From Dichotomocladium elegans (taxonomy: Eukaryota > Mucoromycota > Mucoromycetes > Mucorales > Lichtheimiaceae), in NCBI GenBank assembly GCA_025716815.1, contig JAIXMN010000005.1:434001-498000 (forward strand): a DNA stretch of 64,000 nt, given 5' to 3'. Numbering within the stretch: the first letter of the stretch is position 1; each line of letters opens with the position of its first letter. Under the pieces are notes generated by a model that searched no databases, had not been told where the DNA came from, and saw only the letters and a program-made list of their open reading frames with translations. Shown one piece after another: positions 34,331 to 63,072 of the stretch. The position numbers were made by a program, and so were the translations under genes.

Positions 34331-34394
34331 AAGTCGAATAGGCCATGTAAGCAACTACTGTACGTGTACGCCCTGATGTAGAGGAATTGCTGTA

Positions 34395-34892
34395 TGTATA
34401 TATGTCTTTTTTTTCCAAAAGAAAATTGCGTCCATGCAAGATAAAGCCATGTTGCCGTATATATCAAGAGATAAAAAGATCCCGTACAACATCCCGCTTT
34501 ACATTTTGGCTGATCAATCCGGCCACCACACCAGGCGTATCCAGGTGTGCCCATGGCGATAACACATGGGCGATAGATGGGTGGTGCGCCAGGAGCAAGG
34601 ACAGGCAACGCAAAGCGCAAAAAAAGTGAGGGAAAGATCCTGCCCAAATCGCAGCGCCACCGGATGATGCGATTCCCGTTTTGGCCTCTCTTCCATGGCT
34701 CAAAAGTACGGGGTGCACGATGGGTTCAACCTATCTACAAATGACAAAAGACCTAAAGATTGTAATCTTTTGCCGCGCATGATACATTTGCTTTGTCGCC
34801 ACCATGCGTGAAGATGTCTGGGCAAAAACGCAGCTTCCAAAGACTGCTAGGACACGACTTTTTCTAATTTTGGAAAACGGTGGTATAACAGG
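34395..34892. mobile_element. MITE-like derivative of the Fanzor/Tc1 family (copy E4)
   Basis: The right edge (TTTGTCGCC...GCTAGGACACGACTT...ATTTTGGAAAACGGTGG) matches the right edge of E1 at 4.0-4.13 kb. The inside holds two neighbouring stem-loops (34527-34549 and 34550-34570), then the conserved purine-rich block (34580-34680) ending in CTCTCTTCCATGGC. Neither transposase nor Fanzor is present, so about 500 bp remain. The left edge is approximate. Confidence 0.6.
34550..34570 (+). repeat. Subterminal stem-loop of element E4
   Basis: CCCATG and CATGGG form a perfect 6-bp stem around GCGATAACA. Directly before it, CACACC (34527-34532) and GGTGTG (34544-34549) form a second perfect stem. Confidence 0.75.
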
Positions 34893-42800: not shown

Positions 42801-44674
42801 AAAGCAAAAACGAGACCATGGTCGTTAAACTGGTGAATCAATTCGAGGGCCGTAGTGCGGAGGAGATTGCGAAGGAGCTTTTGCACAAACGCGTCTATGT
42901 CCGTAAGTTGGTCCAGTTAGACACCCTCTCACACACCCCTACGTCTATGGACATAGCACTCATGCCTTTCTCGTTCTGCTCATGGACAGATTATCCATAT
43001 TTACAAGAAGCTGTCGTTATTGGTGTCTCAGATCTGCGGGCCAATTACTATATTAAACAAGTGGCTAAGAAGAAACAAATTCGTGAGCACCTGCTGGACG
43101 AAGATGAGCAAGAGAATTGGCGCCGACGCATTGGTCGTGTTGAATACATGTCCAGCAAGCGTTTTGGTCTCGAAGTGGGCAAAACAGAAATAGGTGTTCA
43201 TGTATGCACACTTCGAGGATTGAAGAAGACGGATACGGGTGCATATGTGAAGGAATATGTAAACCCAGCACAAGAGGATTTAATGCCGCTTCAGGCTATT
43301 GTGACCTCTGTTTCGAACCAAGACGCGCGTTACATGGAGCGCCCTCCTCCTCCAATTAGCGAGGAGTTCCCGCTTGGAAGCAAGGCATTCTTTTTGGGCG
43401 ATGCTTTCTATGGCTATTTGGGAACGATCGTGGGCCACAGCAAACGTGACTCGGCCGATGTTCAGATCATCACCCCACTGGATCGCCAGCACTGCCACGA
43501 ACCTGCCTTTGGTCGAGCCATTGCACGAAGCCAGGCGGACACGATACAATACACCCCATCTTATCGCGTGAGCACCATGCTCGGTATTGATGCCTTGGTG
43601 CTTTCCAAAATAACGTCTTCGCTGACGATCCAGGACAAGGGTATGCAGCGTGTCAACTTGGGCTTGAATCTCAAGTTTGAAGGGAAACAGCAAAAGGTCC
43701 TTGGCTACTCGCGCAAAAACCCCAACGGCCAGTGGGAATATTCGGACAAGGCCATCGATTTGGTTGACCAATACATCAAAGCCTTCCCCAAGTTCATTGA
43801 TTTGCTTCGGTCCAAGAAAAGTAGTGGTATAGGTACGTATATATATGCATATCTTTGTGCTGAATGGTCAAGCTGATTCGATCATGTATGCTAGGGATGC
43901 TTCAAGTTGAGGACTTGATATGGACTGAGAGTGGCGCGAAGGAAATCCAGCGTATGCGTCAGTGGTTAAAAGATAGAAAGGTGGATGAGCTTCCCAGGGC
44001 ACCACTCACGGCCGAAGAACTTGAGGAGGTAAGTCCATGTTTTTTCCCGGATCTCTATTGCCTATTACTAAGCGAATCCTTTATAGCCCTTTGTAAAGTT
44101 GATTGAGCATGAAGGGACAAAGTATCACGACTATTACGAAGACCTTCCCTTCAAAAAGGTTGTGATCCAGCGTGTGCCGCGGAACGTTCTATTGAAGCCC
44201 GTAGATGCCGAGGCGAAGCTCCACATTCAAAAGTTTAAGCTAGGTGACCGTGTGGTTTATGCTCTTGAAACTGGACCGGTTCCTCTTGGAAATCGTGGCA
44301 CGGTTGTTGGCATACAAGAAGATGTGATCGATGTCGTGTTTGATACTACGTTTATGGGCGGAAAGAACCTGGGTGGCAAGTGCTCCGACTTCCGCGGTAT
44401 TTCCCTGCCTTGCTCGAACGTGATCAATCTTTCGTACCCTCTTTTTGCAATTCGCCCAGATGGGAGCCAACATCACAATAGCAGTGTTGGAGCCAATAAG
44501 GAGAACCAACCTCATGGTAGTAATAGTGGTAGTGGTGGCCGACGGATCCATCATAGCAATCAGCAACAGGAGCAAGGCAACTTCCGCCCTCGCGCCCACA
44601 ACGGTCCTAACGGCTATAATGGACCCAGACGTGGCGCCAAGGGTCACCATAACCCAAATGCCCAGCAGCAATAA
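39885..44674 (+). CDS. XRN1: Xrn1 (Kem1) cytoplasmic 5'-3' exoribonuclease
   Basis: Eleven exons join in frame: 39885-39916, 39981-40036, 40131-40448, 40531-40843, 40933-41375, 41506-41918, 41991-42269, 42326-42902, 42990-43832, 43895-44028 and 44087-44674 (1331 aa). The protein opens MGIPKFFRWM, the family start, then NLYLDMNGIVHNCSH with a catalytic Asp. It continues with the AIDGVAPRAKMNQQRSRRF helix, VPGEGEHKIM, GLDADLIML and LFVGNDFLPNLPGLHI, giving the acidic residues that bind two Mg2+ ions. The WVLHYYYNGVASWGWFYPYHYAP block follows. The C-terminal D1-D4/SH3-like region ends in a low-complexity Asn/Gly/Gln/Arg tail. No frameshift or lost catalytic residue is seen. Xrn1 degrades decapped mRNA. 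Confidence 0.96.
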
Positions 44675-44929
44675 CCTTTTCCTTCTTTTGTCTATTCTTA
44701 CATTTGTTTGATCCAAATAAATTTCTTATACGAGACAAAAGCAATGGCAGATAAAATACGAAAAGAAAGAGGTATCAATAGGTAAAATTTTTGTATTCAT
44801 GGATTAAAAGTATGTTACTCCATCATCACACCAATAACCTTGTAACACACCGTTCTTCCAACGGAAGAGGGCTTTATCCCTAAGGCCTGTGGTTATCCTG
44901 AGTGTGTCAGTGATAACTGATGCGGAAAC

Positions 44930-45870
44930 ACATTGGTCGGGGCTCATGGCCGTCTCGATCGGCCTGAGGTGTATGTCGTGGTCTTTCTGGCCTTGCCTGT
45001 CGTGATCTCACGTTTCCGCTTACGCTGATTCGGGAGAGCGCGGCCTTTCCACGAGCTGCACATGTTTGTGCCGTACTTGCTCTCTGAAACCTTGCTATCT
45101 TTCTCGAAGACCACGGGGGATATGATGCATGTTAAGAGGCCGCTGCCAGAACCCGATTCCATAACCTTGGTTGACCGTATCGTTGGGTCGTTGATATGGG
45201 TGTGGATTAGGTACCACTTTGAAGGGCAATGCGAGACTCATTACTACAGGTAAGACAGCACTTGCTGGTTTTGTACTCGTTGATTAAATACAACATTGCA
45301 ATTGTCCAACAGCTGCCGAAAGCCTACACCACGGATACATAGGCTCGTGGTATCTGGTATTTGGCGCAGACCGATTTCACCATCACAGACACGGCCTTAC
45401 TACCAAACCCTTGACGTTCGTAGAAGTCGAGGCGCTTTTTCATTCGCTTGCTGCTTCTTGTAAAAATGCGGACAGGCGTAAGTTGTTGAAACTGAGATTG
45501 GATGGTTCGCTGTAGTTCCTAACGTAGAAAATCTTGAGAAGCGTAAAGACACGGTTCTTGGCAATGAGGTATCCGTCGTCGTCGTCGTCGCGTACGGAAA
45601 GTATACGACTTTGGAACTGAGATAGATGCTGTTTTGCCCAACACCACCTTAGGCTGCTCTGACCTTGTACTCGTTCTCTCCTTCTGCCGTACGACTTGGC
45701 CTTCTGTGTGTATGATCCTGAAGCTGCTTTATATAGCGGAAGATTCAGTGGTTATCCGATGAAGAGGTCTCATGAACGCAATAGAGCAGGTCCCTTCTAC
45801 CAGGATCAACAGTGACCCGCTGGCCTATGGGGGTCTTCGTCCCGGGTTACCTGTGGATTCAAGTACTCGA
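44930..45870 (-). pseudogene. Third Fanzor relic
   Basis: The minus strand shows, in order, GQRVTVDPGRRDLLYCVHE (RuvC-I, about 45825-45765), SAPNTRYHEPM (about 45375-45340, matching the segment after FVMGNW in the 60 kb copy), and a RuvC-III region in which WNRVLAA replaces WNRDLAA (about 45150), followed by LNMHHI in another frame. Many stops and frameshifts separate these parts, and the catalytic Asp of RuvC-III is lost. It lies 255 bp downstream of the XRN1 stop. Confidence 0.7.
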
Positions 45871-46084
45871 TATCTTTGTGGATCCCAAATCTCTGTTCCA
45901 AAACCGGATTTAAGGCCATTTGTTCTCTTGAACACTGTAACTCCAGCGCCGTCAGTATGAACACATACCGACTTGCAAGATTGCTGGTTCGATAGACGAA
46001 AACAATTTTTACTTTTATAGGATAATGTACCTAACTTCTAGCCCTATGATAGCCAAAAAACGATCACGATCATCCAATCTGGGG

Positions 46085-46546
46085 TGCTACAACGAATACC
46101 AATAATCAGTTTGCCAGTGGCATTTTGGTCTAACAGAGCTCAACAGTAAACCGAATGCTGACTGTACGCATCCTCTCAGTTTGGGACGGACATGCGCAGC
46201 AACAAGATCAGACTTGCTCATGCAAGATACGCTAGGTAAGTATACGGTGTGAGAGCAAACGGCTTGAGGAGAATGCATTCCTCATCGGCGACGTAGTCGA
46301 TAAACTTTGGAGAGCGATACTCGTCGAAAATGTGACCTTGTCCGTCGTAGTAAAAAAAAAAATAAAATAAACAAACTGTTCATTTTCGGATTGTATAGGC
46401 AAAATCCCGAAAAGCTGGATACTTTTAAAGAGATGAATTTGCGACGTGTATGCGACATTGGCGTTTGTTATGCAAAGACTTTTTGGCAGAAGTGACTTCG
46501 ATTGTTGCCATCCAACGAGTTTGATTTTGAAAAATACTGTATAATT
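46085..46546 (-). mobile_element. Tc1-like transposase N-terminal fragment with terminal repeat (copy E5)
   Basis: The stretch 46090-46380 aligns with the N-terminal coding part of the other copies (for example 19590-19760). About 140 bp further on, the outward-reading terminal motif TTTGATTTTGAAAA ends near 46546. The Fanzor relic at 44.93-45.87 kb lies just to its left but in the same direction as this fragment. In E1 and E7 the two genes converge, so this may be two insertions side by side. The edges are approximate. Confidence 0.55.
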
Positions 46547-48272
46547 CCAAAATTTAGAAGGGGCACCTCACGATGTATTGTGTTGCGGCATAGGAGGTAA
46601 AATAAAATGTCGCACAAAAATATTAAACTTTGTCGCTTGCATAAGAAGGCCAGAGACATACCCGTTAGTCAACAGAAAATATCTGCCCCCCCCTTCTTAC
46701 CCTTCAACTGATCCCCAAGGTAGCTAGGTGTACCATTGCAGTAACAATGGCAGAACAGGGAGGAAAGGAAGGATCCGGAGCTGTTGAGCGTCGACGGCGG
46801 AAGTATTGGAGGAAGGAATGAGGACGGACGACGAAAGACCAACGACAACACCAGCGGCAGAAGCATCGGAGGAAGCAACAGAGAAAGCAGACGAACAAAA
46901 GCACCTCCGCTAGGCCATGGTTGTGCGGGTGCAGCCAAACCACGGTTCCACCCAAAACCCATATCCTCTTCTCTCGAGCCACTTGAGTTAGGTTGATGTC
47001 GTCATCTAGAGAGGATCCGGGATATTGGAAGATTTGCAGAATGGAACAAGGGTAACCTATTGTCTTTTACTTTGCTCTTGGCAAATGACCAAACCTGGTC
47101 AATCGGATTGAGCTCAGGCGATTAGGGTGGGAGATGAACACATCGATATTCTCAGCCTTATGGATAGGTGCATTATTCATTAACAAATCATGCCCCTTCA
47201 TATGCTCATATTTATCCATCTCGTCCGTCGTAGCCTTAAGGAAGCTGAGATAATGTCCATTTACACTTCCTTTACTCGCGACTTCAGATTGTCCTGGCCT
47301 CTTTCTTTTCTTGATCGGGGGCTGCGGGAGACTCAAGCTAGACTTGATGATGCGTGATGCTGAGATTGCTCCCAAGCTTGTGGTTGTCTTTAGTATTGTG
47401 ACCACTACAGGAGTCCCCTTTCTTGGACCATGCCATGCTGCGTTTCATATGAATATGGAATTCAGACTCGTCAATGAAAACGCAGTTTTTTTTTATAAAG
47501 TCAATATCGGTCCTGTCCCATTTGCGCACGCAATCAAGCGCTCTTGAATTTTTTAACATCGCTATTCCTGTCTACAGGCTGAAGCCGAGCCATTTTCAAT
47601 GACAAGTTGCATTCGTTTTTTCATAAATCGATGGAGCGCTGTTTTCGAGAATTTAAGGCCCTCGATCTCTGGAGCGGTTGCTCCATCAGCTGCTCTAGGG
47701 CAATGGATTGGATTCTCATCAACCCATTCTAAAATAACGCTCTTATGCTCTTCACTGAGAACACGCGAACGACCCCTCTCGCGTTAGGGTCCTTGAAGAT
47801 GCTTTGAGGGTCCGTTTCGTACTGTAATGCCCATCGCTGGGCTAAACAAACATGGATTCCTAGCTGTTTTGCAGCATCTTCTCAAACATCCGTTTGAAAA
47901 ATCCGACCTTGTCTTGGTCAGTGTACGCTGTGTAACTGCGCTTGATCCCCGCTTCTTTCATCCGAATGTCTGTATCTTTTCGCTGGGAACGTGTGTGGTA
48001 GTGAGCTCTGAGTTACCTCCGCAAGATATGCTATGCAGATATTCAGTGCGAGAACAAACGGATTGCAGAGAGTACATTTCTTCATCAACGACATGATCTT
48101 GGCCATCTTGGTAGGAAAATAGGATGTTCATTTCAGAATGTAAAAGTGTATAAAAGAGAAAGCGTCAAAAGGAAGAGATGGACATCTTTCCGTGGATGCA
48201 TGGGACATTTGATTTGTGAGAACTGACAGGTGTGCGACTTTGATTTTGAAAAGTAGTGTATGTATGCGTCCA
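46547..48272. mobile_element. Tc1-like element without Fanzor (copy E6)
   Basis: The left end (46547-46680) has AAATGTCGCAC and CGTTAGTCAACAG, matching the Fanzor-side end of the 57.7-63.07 kb copy. A perfect stem-loop (46733-46750) and a purine-rich block (46750-46930) follow. A broken transposase lies on the minus strand (48110-47060; FIDESEFHIHMKRSMAWSK at about 47500). The right end (GTGCGACTTTGATTTTGAAA at 48231-48270) is nearly the same as the left end of the 57.7 kb copy. There is no Fanzor between block and transposase. The element ends about 25 bp from the stop codon of the uL29m gene. Confidence 0.7.
46733..46750 (+). repeat. Subterminal stem-loop of element E6
   Basis: CCATTG and CAATGG form a perfect 6-bp stem around CAGTAA. 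A shorter stem, GGTA (46719-46722) with TACC (46731-46734), precedes and slightly overlaps it. The position matches the stem-loops of E1, E4 and the 62.8 kb end. Confidence 0.7.
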
Positions 48273-57266: not shown

Positions 57267-57857
57267 TACATGTATACGCGTTTTGAGTATATTAATGTAT
57301 ATATACCAGCAACATGTTCTTCGCACCAGCGCATTTTCACCTACTGCTTTATCATATGTATGCACCCGTTTGCTTTTCTTCTATCGATCTCACCCCACCC
57401 TTATCATGCATAACTTTCCTATTTCTTTCGAGCTACATCAATGGCGCCTCTTTCGGATGCGTGCAGTTTTAAGCTGATTCGGAACTTACGCACCGCATCT
57501 GTATGACTGAAAAGAGAAAAAGACGGTTCTTTTTCTTTTCCCTCTCTTTTATTTTTGCTTTGTTTGTCCTTTTGTACACTAGCATGTCTGCCTATCACCG
57601 GAAAGATCTCCTATGTTGCAACGAAATAAAAGAAAATATAAATCAAACTTGTTCTTGTGCATCGATTCGTAAAATACGTAATTAAGGAAAGGAGGCCGCA
57701 TCACATTCTGCTAGTTATACACTCTTTTTCAAAATCAAAGTCGCACTCTGCCAGTTCTGAAGTCGCAGGATTGCAAAAATACAAATCGCATTTTGCCCAC
57801 GGGAAGATGTCGCACAAAAAAAGAAGCTTTCTCTTTTATACACTTTAACATTCTGAA

Positions 57858-59062
57858 ATGGGCAACCTAATTTTCTACCAGGATGGCCAAGGTCATGTCG
57901 TTGATGAGCGTAGCTGTCTTGAACCTATGAACTATGCCATTGATGAGGAAATGTACTCACTTCAATCCGTTTGTTCTCACACTGAATATCTGCGTAGCAT
58001 ATTGTGCAAAGATAACCCTGAGCTTACTCCCACACGCATTCCCCAGCGAAAGGATACAGACATTCGGATGAAAGAAGCTGGGATCAAGCGCAGTTACACA
58101 GCATAAACCGACCAAGACAAGGTCAGATTTTTCAAACGGATGTTTGAGAAGATCTTGAGTGCGTCAGCTGCTAGGTCTCCATATTCGTTCAGTCCAGCGA
58201 TGGGCATTACAGTACAAGAAGGGCCCTGACAGCATCTTTAAGAAACCTAACACGGGGGGACCGTTCGCGTATTCTCAATGAAGAGCATAAGCGCATTCTT
58301 TTAGAATGCGTTGATGAAGACCCATCCATTGTTCTAGAGTATCTGCTCCAACGATTTGAGGGTCTCAAAGCATATAAAACGACGCTCCATCGATTTATGA
58401 AAACGTATGCAACTTGTCATTAAAAATAGTTCGGTTTCAGCCTATAGACAGGAATAATGTTGCGAAGATCCAAGAGCGCCTTGACTGAGTATGCAGATGG
58501 GATAGGACCGACATCGACTTCAAAGCTGCGTTTTTCTTTGATGAGTCTGGATTCCATATTAACATGAAATGCAGCATGGTGTGGTCCAAGAAAGGGACTC
58601 CTGCAGTGGTTACAGTACCAAAGACAGCCACAATCATGGGAGCAATCTCAGCATCAGGCATCATTCAATGTAGCTTGAGACTCCCGCAGCCACCAATCAA
58701 GAAAAGAAGAAGGCAGGTCAATCTGAAGTTGCGAGCAGAGGAGCTGCAACTGAACATCATCTCAGCTTCCTTAAGGCAACAATGGATGAGATGGATAAGT
58801 ATGAACATATGAAGGGCCATTTGTTGGTAATGGATAATGCACCTATCCATACGGCTCAGGATATTTCTGAATACATCGAGTCTCGGGGATATCGATATGC
58901 TTATCTTCCACCATACTCGCCTGAACTCAATTCTATTGAGCAGTTTTGGTCAGTGGTCAAGGGCAAAGTTAAATGCGATAGGTTGTTGGAAAGCGAGACG
59001 TTGATAACATAGATCTGCGAGGCATCCAACAGCTTAAAGCTGAGCGATTTCGAAGGTATCGC
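57858..59062 (+). pseudogene. Tc1/IS630-like DD34E transposase, broken
   Basis: Recognisable parts in order are the N-terminal region (MGNLIFYQDGQGHV...SVCSHTEYLRS, 57858-58100), the first catalytic Asp region (FDESGFHINMKCSMVWSKKG, about 58534-58590), VMDNAPIH with the second Asp (58833) and LPPYSPELNSIEQFW with the Glu (58938). There are 34 residues between the second Asp and the Glu, so it is DD34E as in Tc1. At least three frame breaks or stops separate these parts (for example TAA at 58104-58106), so it cannot make a full protein. The product would bind the terminal repeats and cut and paste the element at TA sites. Confidence 0.8.
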
Positions 59063-59159
59063 TTCTCATTCTCATATGTGCTTAGTTAACTGCCCTAATG
59101 TGAACAACTGTGATCCGACTTAGGATAGTTCTACACAGATCACAAGGTATAAATAGGTT

Positions 59160-59460
59160 AGAAAGGAAGTGTATGCGTATAAGAATTGATCTATCGAGGA
59201 CGTTCCCTTCGTGGGATCATCAATAGGTTTTGTTAGCCATCGGCCTGGCTTGGTTTCCTGTATAATGGAGATTTGAGAAAACTGGTTTTTGTTTATCAAA
59301 CCCATCCTCAGCCTCTCTTCCATCATCTTACCTGATATGAATCTTCATAATATTGACTTTCTTTTCATCCAAATTTAACACCTACTGTCTTTTGTACATT
59401 GACCAGTTTTTACAGCCCCTCCAAATGCCATGGAAAAGAGATGATCCAGCTACCTTTGGT
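59160..59460 (-). repeat. Partial copy of the family block between transposase and Fanzor
   Basis: On the minus strand this aligns with 62.52-62.72 kb: CTCTTTTCCATGGCA, an AT-rich intron-like stretch, then AAGATGATGGAAGAGAGG. Both copies encode a phrase like (P)DKTMEERV or MMEERLRMGL after the intron-like part. The orientation is the same as the 62.5 kb copy, so the Fanzor is flanked by direct repeats. Confidence 0.55.
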
Positions 59461-59656
59461 TTCTAACTTGTCCATTCATGTCGTTAGCCAGGTGCCCCTC
59501 AGGCAAGACGTGCGGTGAAGATCTGAGACATTGGCTAAAGAAATGTCATTAAAGTCAACAATATTTGCTATTCTGAGGCAAGTAATACATAGATAAATAT
59601 AAAATAAAAGTGACATGGGGGCATGGGGCATAGGGAAATGAATGTGATAGAAGAAT

Positions 59657-61870
59657 CTAATGCGGAGGTTGTGGCCCATGTGGGCCACGTGGTCCTGGTC
59701 GTCGCCGTGGTCCTCGTGCTCTTACGTTTCGCTGGTCCGGCTCTGGTTCCTGGATCCTGACAGCCGTCACGGCTCTTCGGGGAAATCTTTGGGGAACTGA
59801 GCCATCAGAACGAAGGCTGCGGATGATGTGGTGCATGTTGAGACATGCCGCCAAATCCCGGTTCCACACACGGCGTTGAGGACTGCAGTTTTGGTGACTG
59901 CATCTACAGAAAATATTACTATCACATTCAAAGGGAGAGAAAACTTCTTACCTAGGAGACCATGACATATAACCTCCGAACGCCATCTGTCTTCCCTTCC
60001 TCGATGGGCTGGTCGTGGATTTTGCACCCGCTTATATGTTGATAAGCTCTCATTGAGACAGGCTGGACAGCACCTGCTCGTCTTGTACTCGTCAATGAGG
60101 AACACCTCAAATCCGTTCTTCCGCAGTAGCATTCTAAACCCTTTTCCGCGCATGGGTTCGTGATATCTGGCATGGGGAGCCGGCCAGTTTCCCATCACAA
60201 ACACAGCGGTTTCTCCAAATTTTCTTTTCAGTTCGGTGATGAGCTTGAGGTCAGCACGGTGTTTGTTGAAGGTCGATGACAGACGAAGTTTGCGCATCAA
60301 AAAGCGACCGGGGTTATGCGTCGTTCCTGTTGATCCATAAAACTGCTGAAGAACAGCAGTTTGGTCATCCCTAGCAACGAGGAAGCGGGAGTACTCATCG
60401 ACTTCCAAAGTGTTGCTCCGGAACCCCGAGAGATCAAGTTCAGCACGTACAACTTCCTCGTCCTGATCCTTGAGTCGTTGTATCAATCGTCGGTGCTTCT
60501 TCGTCTTCCTGATCTTGTCTTGCTCTTGCTTGGTGTAGCGAAACTTGACAGGCTCAAGCGAAGTCGACCGCTCATGGGCACAGTAGAGCATATCTCTACG
60601 CCCTGGATCCACTGTTACGCATCGGCCTGCAATTTCTCGATGCTTCTCAGCGGTCAAACTATCTACGTATGGAGACTGCTCCTCCACCTTCGGAGCTGCA
60701 CCGGTTCTTGGGGGTGCGTCCCTGTCCCTTCTCTTCTTGATAATGGAGACTCCTACGCCATCCGTTTCAAGTGTACCACGAAATCGAAGTACTCCATTCT
60801 CTGCAGGCTTGAGAGCTTTGGAATGGACATCGATGACTTCATCCCATCCGCCAGGATAAGGAACTGATTTGACCCATAAGCGACCTAGAATGTTTTGCCA
60901 TATGATTTTTGCGTCAATCATTATGTATGACGGAGACCATGACCGACGAAGAGGGAAACAGGCAAATGCAGGCAACTGAAGTCGCTCGAAAAGGAGAGCG
61001 AGCTGGTAAAGTCTGCGATATGTTGGATTGGATGAACCTTTGCATCGTAGTAGATGCTATCGCTGTCAAAGGCGTGGGTAGTAGTGTAAGCATTGAAAAT
61101 TGGCCGGATGGTGTCGAAAGCTTCCTGAAGATAAGCTGGATCGTCTGGGATGTCGTCTCTGGATACGTTTCGACGAGCTACAATCTGCTTAAATGTTGTT
61201 GCGGGTGTAATGATTGTCTCTCGGATGCGTTGATTGATTTGTGTCGCGTCCAGACCTTGGCCAATCAGCTGCTCTTCAAGCTCCTCTTTCCGCTGTCGAA
61301 TATTCAGCAAGACATTGATAGCCCGCCGAAAATGTTGGCCGAATCGCATTGAATGTTATTGGTGTAAGCAACAACCATCTTGTCGCCTTCGTAATTTGCA
61401 CATTGCTGGGAGTATGGAAAGGATGGTCGTTCATAATTTGTATATAAGAGATATGGCGTCGAGTATTCATCAATCAGATTCCGGTATCGAGTCGTTTCCT
61501 CGCCACAGCCACGTCGTTTGTAATCGATCAATGCGAGCCAGACTTCAAGAAAGAATCTTTCGTTGATAAGAGCCCTGATGTCAAAATTTTCATTGGCTTG
61601 GAACTCATGGAGAAAAATGTATTTTGATAGTGCGTATGCATGCATTGTCATTATATTCACAAGTTCGACCAAATGGTTCAACTTTTCGCGGTACTCTTGT
61701 CTCCAGCCTATGCTGTCAATGGATGCTTTCACAACCATGGTACGATCGCGGGTTTCGGGTCGATGAACGTTCATACTTTTGTTGATTGTTTTAGTATGGT
61801 AGGTTGTCAATGAAACGAGTATATCAAAGAAAAAGAAAGAGTGAGAGTAAACAAGCGGTTTTCTACGCAA
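59657..61870 (-). pseudogene. Fanzor (eukaryotic TnpB-like RNA-guided DNA endonuclease), nearly complete
   Basis: Three minus-strand segments follow each other: 61870-61345 (N-terminal helical part), 61349 to about 61035 (RFGQHFRRAINVLLNIR...) and about 61035-59950 with a last exon to 59657. They contain FACFPLRRSWSPSYIMIDAK, RuvC-I VTVDPGRRDMLYC (Asp at about 60607), KFGETAVFVMGNWPAPHARYHEPM, the zinc ribbon CCPACLNES and, after an intron (about 59950-59906), WNRDLAACLNMHHI (RuvC-III, about 59868). The basic tail is rich in Arg, Pro and Gly. Two frameshifts (near 61345 and 61035) and an unclear final splice make this copy probably inactive, although single-base sequencing errors cannot be excluded. 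Fanzors cut DNA guided by an omega-RNA made near the element end. Confidence 0.82.
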
Positions 61871-61952
61871 AAGTATATATTATCTATTCTTTCTTATTTG
61901 ACTGGTCTCATACAAGCACTCAGATGGTAGGATTAACGGGAAATCAATTATG

Positions 61953-62108
61953 TACAGTGGCCATCCCTCATAGTGATATTCATTATAATGATAATTCATT
62001 GTAGCGATACACTTTACAGAACAAAATTACCAGGTAAGGCTTATTCCAATTCATTATAGTAATGCGATTTCCTGGAACCGAGGGTATCACTACAACAGGC
62101 GGCCACTA
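61953..62108. mobile_element. Small inserted repeat with pogo-like ends
   Basis: The ends CAGTGGCC...TAGTGATA and, on the other strand from the right, TAGTGGCC...TAGTGATA are imperfect inverted repeats flanked by TA. The inside is rich in ATTCATTATAATGA-type motifs, seen in pogo/Tigger-like elements. At about 155 bp it has no coding capacity. It sits upstream of the Fanzor start within E7. Confidence 0.5.
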
Positions 62109-62291
62109 TAACAGAAATGCACATCCAATTCTTATCAAACCGACCTCTGAATACGCCCAATACAATTTCGTTTCTAACAGCACCACGGACGGTATGTCGA
62201 TTGCTTAAATACGCTATGTGAACCGCCCAGGGCTAAAAAACCAAAATAAACAGTATCAATAAATGATGGAAATCGTCGATGAAAAGAGCAT

Positions 62292-62467
62292 GTGACCCGC
62301 CGCTCTATTTACTGCAGCATCGTTCATCACAAAGAAATTATGCAAGTACTATCCGAATGCAATAACAGGACGTTTCCAAGCTTCTGTACCGATTAAAGGA
62401 TCAGCGAGTGATGAAAATCGTGACCCGCCGCTGTATTTACTGCAGCATCGTTCATCACAAAGAAATT
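62292..62467. repeat. Two 48-bp direct repeats (62292-62339 and 62420-62467)
   Basis: The two units begin GTGACCCGCCGCT and end ACAAAGAAATT with one visible mismatch, and are separated by 80 bp of unrelated sequence. Preceding bases (GATGAAAA) are also similar, so the duplicated unit may be slightly longer. Confidence 0.85.
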
Positions 62468-62870
62468 TCTTCTGCTCCTCCTTGATTTCCTATAAATAAT
62501 GGACAACTGAGAAATCTCCTTTCTCCATCGATTTCATCCCGACCCTCTCTTCCATGGTCTTATCCGGTATGATCGCTATAATACCAAATTATTTTATTGC
62601 AACTAACATCCACTGTCCTTTATAGATTAACCAATCGTACCCGTGCTTGATGGGCCATGGAAGAGAGGAGTTCCTGAACACCCTTCCGCTCCTTCCACTC
62701 TTTTTCGCTGCCACCGCAGGCCCCATTCCGCTCCTTCCCTCCGCCGCCGCCATTCCCTCGTTTGGCGCCCTGGCAGCCTCCGCCTGTCCCTTCTGGTGTG
62801 CTGGCTCTCTCCTCCTGTTTCTCCGTCCCGGTTATCGCCGGGACTACCCAGGATAACTCCTGGGTCCTTC
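62460..62870 (-). repeat. Subterminal family block with twin stem-loops (E7)
   Basis: Two perfect stem-loops lie side by side: CCCGG/CCGGG around TTATCG (62827-62842) and CCCAGG/CCTGGG around ATAACT (62847-62864). On the minus strand they are followed by a purine-rich block and CTCTTCCATGGCCCATCAAG, nearly identical to 2.44-2.47 kb. An intron-like stretch and ATACCGGA(T/C)AA(G/A)ACCATGGAAGAG follow. The block is shared with E1, E3, E4 and, more weakly, E6. Confidence 0.7.
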
Positions 62871-63072
62871 GGGGCCCTTGAGTGTAAGTTAAAGCGTATG
62901 GAGGAGTAGTGTTTTTTCTGTTGACTAACAGGTTCTAATCCATGGATGCGAAATATTTTTGCCTATTGATACGACAAATTTATATAATACAATGCGACAT
63001 TTTTTTTTGTATTTTGCACGACATTATTTTATCTTGTTTACGACATTTATTTTTGAAAATAAAGTAGTATTA

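Follow-up and report, generated by a model that had tools for sequence, protein, structure and literature searches.

Organization of the element

We analyzed a window of 64,000 nucleotides of the Dichotomocladium elegans genome (on contig C68 of the 39.4 Mb searched). The window contains a Tc1-like element in which a transposase gene and a Fanzor gene face each other, with a candidate guide RNA (reRNA) at the right end (Table 1). The inverted repeats (TIRs) at the two ends are imperfect (14 nt, 86%), and repeated GTCGCA/GTCGTA-like motifs are legible at both, as an earlier sequence-only reading had described. That reading also set the limits at 57716–63072, which fits on the left but is six bases too long on the right.

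Table 1. Features of the Tc1-like element, with positions in the window
Feature	Position	Strand	Remarks
Tc1-like element	57718–63064		bounded by TA on both sides
Left TA	57716–57717		target site
Left end	57718–57815		inverted repeat TACACTCTTTTTCAAAATC and GTCGCA subterminal repeats
Tc1-like DD34E transposase	57858–59094	+	broken; frameshifts and stops
R'	59249–59405	+	diverged second copy of R (69% to 62481–62633)
Fanzor1 gene	59657–61774	-	broken; intron about 59904–59951; DPG, E(x6)CxxC and NRD motifs legible
Small MITE	61955–62108		TIRs CAGTGGCC and GGCCACTA; presumably pogo-like
Two 48-bp direct repeats	62292–62467	+	Fanzor-less deletion terminates in either copy
R module	62475–62720	+	TATAAATA, then an intron-like GTATG...TAG stretch within a long hairpin; fold z -3.2
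Stem-loop 1 of candidate guide RNA	62825–62844	+	GTCCCGG-TTATCG-CCGGGAC
Linker and hairpin	62846–62876	+	conserved ACCCAGGATAAC linker and UUCG-loop hairpin
Right end	63046–63064	+	palindromic TTTATTTTTGAAAATAAAG, also in sister families
Right TA	63065–63066		target site; predicted guide would begin beyond

The spacing from the last D to the E of the transposase, counted directly in the window translation, is 34. A fragment of a related copy (L016) matched DDE_3 (PF13358) at 5.6e-22, and Pfam gave no match on the raw open reading frames of the window. Among fetched loci of the window (W) family and its sister families, pooled, TA was found in 31/33 distinct left flanks and 47/50 distinct right flanks. 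All 24 elements with both ends recovered had the left TA, the right TA being imposed by the search expression. No empty site occurred among the fetched loci, so the TA duplication is drawn from a comparison of flanks only. A DDE_3-type transposase with DD34E spacing, inverted ends and TA target duplication together place the element in Tc1/mariner.

Homology places the gene on the opposite strand among Fanzor1 proteins. Against solved proteins, the window Fanzor half scored 7.7e-64 with Parasitella Fz1 and 2.1e-31 with Spizellomyces Fz1, and the protein of a sister family (F type) scored 9.1e-130 and 2.3e-52, respectively; among 108 proteins, the best matches (42–48%) were in Syncephalis, Mucor and Rhizopus. 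The D, rearranged E and D of the sister protein fall at positions 401, 574 and 637, with the E six residues before CxxC, and the same motifs are legible in the window sequence, where an intact Fanzor reading frame is absent. Sequence comparison thus identifies the cargo as a Fanzor1 nuclease gene. The sequence-only reading had named both genes and their strands correctly, with a DD34E transposase on plus and a Fanzor facing it on minus. All Fanzors and all transposases sampled in the W family are broken, and the window copy is itself a decayed composite transposon – dead, well delimited and with both genes broken.

The TATA-like TATAAATA box and the intron-like GTATG..TAG stretch of R recur in a second element of the window (E1) and on contig C57, and R-like pieces occur at many further places in the genome. 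R may be the promoter of the guide RNA, a reading weakened by the occurrence of R-like modules without Fanzor. We rejected R and R' (62475–62720 and 59245–59490) as the guide RNA itself: R folds at z -3.2 but R' at z 0.2, and most of the R-like pieces listed have no adjoining Fanzor. Subterminal hairpins had also been proposed from the sequence; structures do lie there, but they are chiefly the candidate guide RNA and the separate structured R module.

A candidate guide RNA at the right end

The candidate reRNA begins with a 7-bp stem and a UUAUCG loop and runs to the TIR and TA at the right end. The F type carries the same arrangement past its Fanzor stop codon (GCGTCAG-TTATCG-CTGACGC, ACCCAGGATAAC, UUCG hairpin, right repeat), and the stem halves of another sister family (G type) read GTGTCGG/CCGGCAC. 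The H type and three remnants in the window (at 2.3, 34.6 and 46.7 kb) supply further stems with the same or nearly the same loop. Stem-loop 1 begins 240 (W), 259–260 (F) or 194–195 (G) bases before the element end.

Across eight chosen variants, own stem halves pair at 7, 7, 7, 6, 7, 7, 6 and 6 of 7 positions and foreign halves at 4.1 on average; only 3 of 40320 permutations pair as well, the true pairing included. Between the window and F stems there are four double changes and no broken pair. Covariation thus predicts a structured RNA with a 7-bp stem-loop 1 at the right end, as in reRNA/omegaRNA. Folding energies were mixed: the F-type right end gave z -2.23, and the window right end alone was not unusual (z -0.65). 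Rfam returned no match in the window at gathering scores. Exact complements predicted for RYGTGC-type 3' halves had no match, and a search for full complements of a further stem variant gave only the already known 34.6-kb copy; with two mismatches allowed, four places were found, with inner pairs only. These failed complements and the unremarkable window fold weigh against the guide-RNA reading. A loop–linker pseudoknot (GUUAUC/GAUAAC) is complementary in the W and F families only, and we do not claim it.

The core of the candidate (GTTATC..AGGATAAC) has 159 matches in the genome versus 1 for a reversed control, and a second form has 39 versus 0. The sole core in the window element is on the plus strand at the right end (62832); none of the GTTATC words on the Fanzor strand (58011, 59003 and 62852) continues into the core. 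We aligned 26 of 28 chosen W right ends; the 20-base stem-loop 1 is unchanged in 20 of these and carries one or two changes in the other 6. Substitutions amount to 1.7% in stem-loop 1 and linker, 0.9% in the TIR and 3.1–3.5% in R and spacer – rates that weakly support constraint on stem-loop 1. Three loci outside this set (L004, L026 and L027) have lost stem-loop 1 by a 61697/62860 deletion.

On the minus strand of the window, 34380–34800 holds a right end with an R-like piece and the further stem variant GCCCATGT-GTTATCGC-CATGGGC. On the same strand, at about 46545–48262, lies a Tc1 remnant with a transposase and no visible Fanzor; close to the right end of this remnant is a hairpin resembling stem-loop 1 (CCATTG-TTACTG-CAATGG).

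Copies and deletion forms of the window family

Searches of the genome gave at least 43 matches to the Fanzor, 53 to the transposase and 45 to the right-end DNA; these are lower bounds, from 40 scored candidates per query out of 147, 1094 and 599 first-look candidates, respectively. We typed 40 related transposase loci, setting aside 13 shorter matches of the transposase search: 7 are full-type, reaching towards Fanzor, 19 retain half a Fanzor and 14 are Fanzor-less. Because 33 of the 40 are deletion forms, the Fanzor is dispensable for spread. Mapping of 60 fetched loci showed that the half-Fanzor deletion removes the nuclease half, joining 59120 to 60674 (4-base overlap) or to about 60736, and that the Fanzor-removing deletion joins 59092–59094 to either 62299 or 62427, with at most 3 bases of overlap. 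The short junction overlaps suggest microhomology repair. Most of the Fanzor-less derivatives sampled retain the candidate RNA.

A Fanzor piece was listed nearby at 18 of the 40 transposase loci, and it is convergent in all 18. One of these, on C28, also has a same-strand Fanzor piece, in agreement with an internal inversion observed in L006. Two W copies (L005 and L007) align with right-end sequence and inverted Fanzor in window order, and L008 does so up to its edge at 62900. E1 (about 2.2–3.9 kb, minus strand) repeats the convergent order with pieces of transposase, Fanzor and right end, as had been noticed from the sequence. On C57 (element at about 1657.7–1665.3 kb) an open Fanzor frame of 609 aa faces an open transposase frame of 475 aa and has an R-like module on its 5' side; the core was not found in the 451 bases of L089 from this locus, which begin within the gene's C-terminal tail. 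The Fanzor 5' part also adjoins an R-like module on C90 and C28, where convergent order is kept in part.

Several W copies share a transposase frameshift near 58150–58200; it differs between the two F-type copies described below. Since the frameshift is common to several copies, they were probably moved in trans. Open transposase frames of 386–475 aa at C44:468722, C57:1663639 and C79:217368 are possible active sources.

The central proposal of the sequence-only reading – a Tc1-like element with Fanzor as convergent passenger – holds in that further copies of the arrangement, bounded by the same pair of ends and by TA, exist in the genome, and within the W family we saw neither Fanzors with separate ends of their own nor ends that fail to co-occur. 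Its extension to a defined convergent family stands in so far as the form recurs with ends and TA, but convergence is not the rule of this genome, as the sister families show.

Fanzor and guide in sister families

A Fanzor protein search gave 162 genome matches, many of them open frames of about 737 aa with about 49% identity. Two young F-type elements (L061:1782–5721 and L062:1779–5717) each carry an intact 709-aa Fanzor and no full transposase. They are 98.6% alike across a 3.95 kb alignment and have ends of the same kind, with Fanzor on the strand of the right end and the transposase reduced to a remnant. Their Fanzor genes differ by 12 synonymous changes and 1 nonsynonymous change (491 and 1639 sites; dN/dS about 0.025), and the remaining aligned parts differ at 18/1798 sites. 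Judged from this single pair, the F-type Fanzor appears to be under strong purifying selection, and the Fanzor of this one sister family still looks functional. We considered whether the MITE, which lies upstream of Fanzor in the window and in the F type, proves a cassette inversion; as its flanks differ, we rejected this.

In the G type (L096 and L097, with L084 and L087), left end, frameshifted transposase, Fanzor and right end are all in tandem. We examined the 52 Fanzor search loci on contigs C1–C46 that belong to neither the W nor the H type. The core lies beyond the Fanzor 3' end on the same strand in 39, on the opposite strand in 1, and is without an exact match within 3 kb in 12. In 31 of the 39 tandem loci the protein match ends 339–403 bases from the core. 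Two of the 12 (L088 and L090) have a legible, slightly changed same-strand stem-loop, and in L085 no stem-loop was seen. None of 6 H-type Fanzors on these contigs has the exact core, though an H-type hairpin with the same loop and a shorter stem was read in three loci.

The W family departs from this order. In the window the candidate guide lies on the strand opposite Fanzor, at its 5' side, and not downstream on the same strand as in the 39 sister-family loci. The W copy at C47:37591 likewise has its core opposite, on the 5' side. By exact pattern, W loci on C1–C46 gave an opposite core in 0 of 5, a same-strand core in 1 (the rearranged C28) and none in 4. Since the W Fanzor is read in the direction leading away from the guide RNA, a common transcript for enzyme and guide is impossible.

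Other Fanzor loci were seen beside these. A decayed F-type remnant at about 44650–46543 of the window (minus strand) keeps the left end, parts of Fanzor and the guide-RNA core, all in one orientation, and L093, L094 and L095 represent another Fanzor group (frames of about 380–770 aa) with a right-end hairpin of its own and a different element end.

Flanking sequences

Both flanks were available for 24 elements: RTTA precedes the left end in 18 of them, and its mirror follows the right end in 8 (paired test, p 0.008; the copies are related by descent, the sites independent). It is on the left only in 13 elements and on the right only in 3, and the left form is ATTA in 13 and GTTA in 5. Among 31 distinct left flanks with TA, T precedes TA in 25 and A or G precedes that in 28; the mirrored bases occur in 20 and 13 of 47 right flanks, a set richer in sister-family loci. 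An unpaired test (p 4e-7) was set aside, as it compared unequal sets of families. The left-flank bias is modest and a possible footprint of a TAM, with RTTA as the TAM predicted here by analogy with SpuFz1; it could also reflect a lopsided transposase preference.

Relation to known systems

The comparisons in this section follow the portions of the cited papers available to us. Fanzor1 within Tc/mariner elements has been published since 2013 (PMC3627910). Like the window element, PGv-1, PUl-1 and PUl-4 hold a Fanzor1 and a mariner-type transposase between TIRs with TA duplications, and some elements of the PGv-1/PUl type lack a transposase; unlike it, they reside in viruses and Pythium, and their guide RNA was then unrecognised (PMC3627910). 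A Fanzor inverted relative to its guide RNA is not described in the available text of that paper.

Spu-1 and ghost Spu-1 elements resemble the elements studied here in their right-end guide RNA, in Fanzor-less elements that retain it, and in the conservation, ahead of the left repeat, of bases belonging to the measured TAM CATA; Spu-1 differs in that no transposase was found between the repeats and in a Fanzor that precedes its RNA on the same strand (PMC10432273). The SpuFz1 TAM is CATA, CA precedes the 5' repeat in its elements, and RNAs of ghost elements functioned with SpuFz1 in human cells (PMC10432273); the TAMs of GtFz1 and SpuFz1 are given in the other order in PMC11423790. The best-scoring solved protein, Parasitella parasitica Fanzor1 (PDB 9cf0–9cf3), likewise has a guide RNA with a 7-bp stem-loop 1 and, resembling the TAM predicted here, a 5'-ATN TAM (PMC11423790). 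Its guide RNA measures 75 nt (PMC11423790), whereas stem-loop 1 here lies 194–260 bases before the element end. A first stem-loop of 7 bp is common to three solved Fanzor guide RNAs and contacts the RuvC and TNB domains (PMC11423790). The SfAV Fanzor1 reRNA spans the TIR and duplicated target bases and continues into about 15 nt of flank, as we propose here; the SfAV element differs in encoding Fanzor alone, with the pseudoknot reported absent (PMC10711439).

TnpB derives its guide from the mRNA that encodes it (PMC10278001), so the flipped arrangement of Fanzor and guide is unexpected, and we found no description of it in the accessible parts of the literature searched. The class – Fanzor1 in Tc/mariner – is thus already known, and the flipped order of enzyme and guide together with many Fanzor-less carriers of the candidate guide is a new variant.

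Interpretation and alternatives

We consider it probable that the element is a decayed Tc1-like composite that carried a Fanzor1 as cargo and, on the plus strand of its right end, a guide-RNA gene for the Fanzor of its family. Its Tc1-like ends and transposase placed it into TA sites, as the ends, TA flanks and copies support. The right end would act as a guide-RNA gene, given its position, covariation and the homology of the nuclease. In a working ancestor the guide RNA would read through the right repeat and TA into the flank and so take its guide from the insertion site; Fanzor would then cut the same site when empty and favour copying-back of the element, in line with published Fanzor and TnpB work. 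In the W family, enzyme and guide would come from separate transcripts, or the guide would be used by Fanzors made elsewhere, and forms without a whole Fanzor would have gone on spreading, most of them keeping the guide-RNA end.

That a Tc1 element and a distinct Fanzor element merely adjoin by chance is exceedingly improbable even in a genome rich in both, and is already contradicted by identical junctions, both ends and TA recurring at independent sites. That Fanzor is a plain hitchhiker in Tc1, with the conserved right-end structure serving transposition (as a site of transposase binding or an end hairpin) and not guiding, is quite unlikely. Fanzor-less and half-Fanzor forms do outnumber full ones, right-end modules are also found without Fanzor, and the TIR is the most conserved part across W copies. 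An end structure of this kind is nevertheless hard to reconcile with a stem-loop 1 that starts 194–260 bases inside the end, changes by compensating pairs around a nearly fixed loop, as in RNA, and comes after Fanzor in the same orientation at 39 of 52 loci, or with the position of the window element's only core at its right end.

A further alternative, conceivable though on balance doubtful, treats the convergent form as a decay accident in which recombination inverted the Fanzor of an already dead element, later copies arose in trans, and the form never acted. The convergent order of E1, the open 609- and 475-aa frames facing each other on C57 and the partly convergent loci on C90 and C28 all argue against such an accident, while the broken state of the W Fanzors examined, the transposase frameshift shared by several copies, which were probably moved in trans, and the position of R' near the transposase, which hints at recombination between two elements, argue for it. 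Given the broken state of all W Fanzors and transposases sampled, a working partnership between the flipped form and its own guide may never have existed.

Under the composite-element reading we can also envisage, as a speculative and rather unlikely extension, that in convergent families the guide RNA would be transcribed as a separate gene from a promoter of its own, the R module. A genome-wide Tc1 pool, much of it Fanzor-less, would then supply guides in trans to the few working Fanzors that keep the transposon family in place, with the ATTA flank as their footprint. We give this lower odds because the flank bias is weaker in elements with both flanks.

Significance

The role of Fanzors for transposons is still an open question in the field. 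Within this one genome, a common type of end accompanies transposases, candidate guide RNAs and Fanzors both intact and broken, and the forms present are tandem, flipped, half-deleted and Fanzor-less. These elements are a natural collection for three questions: does Fanzor act in trans, do enzyme and guide require a shared transcript, and does the TAM influence the places in which transposons persist?
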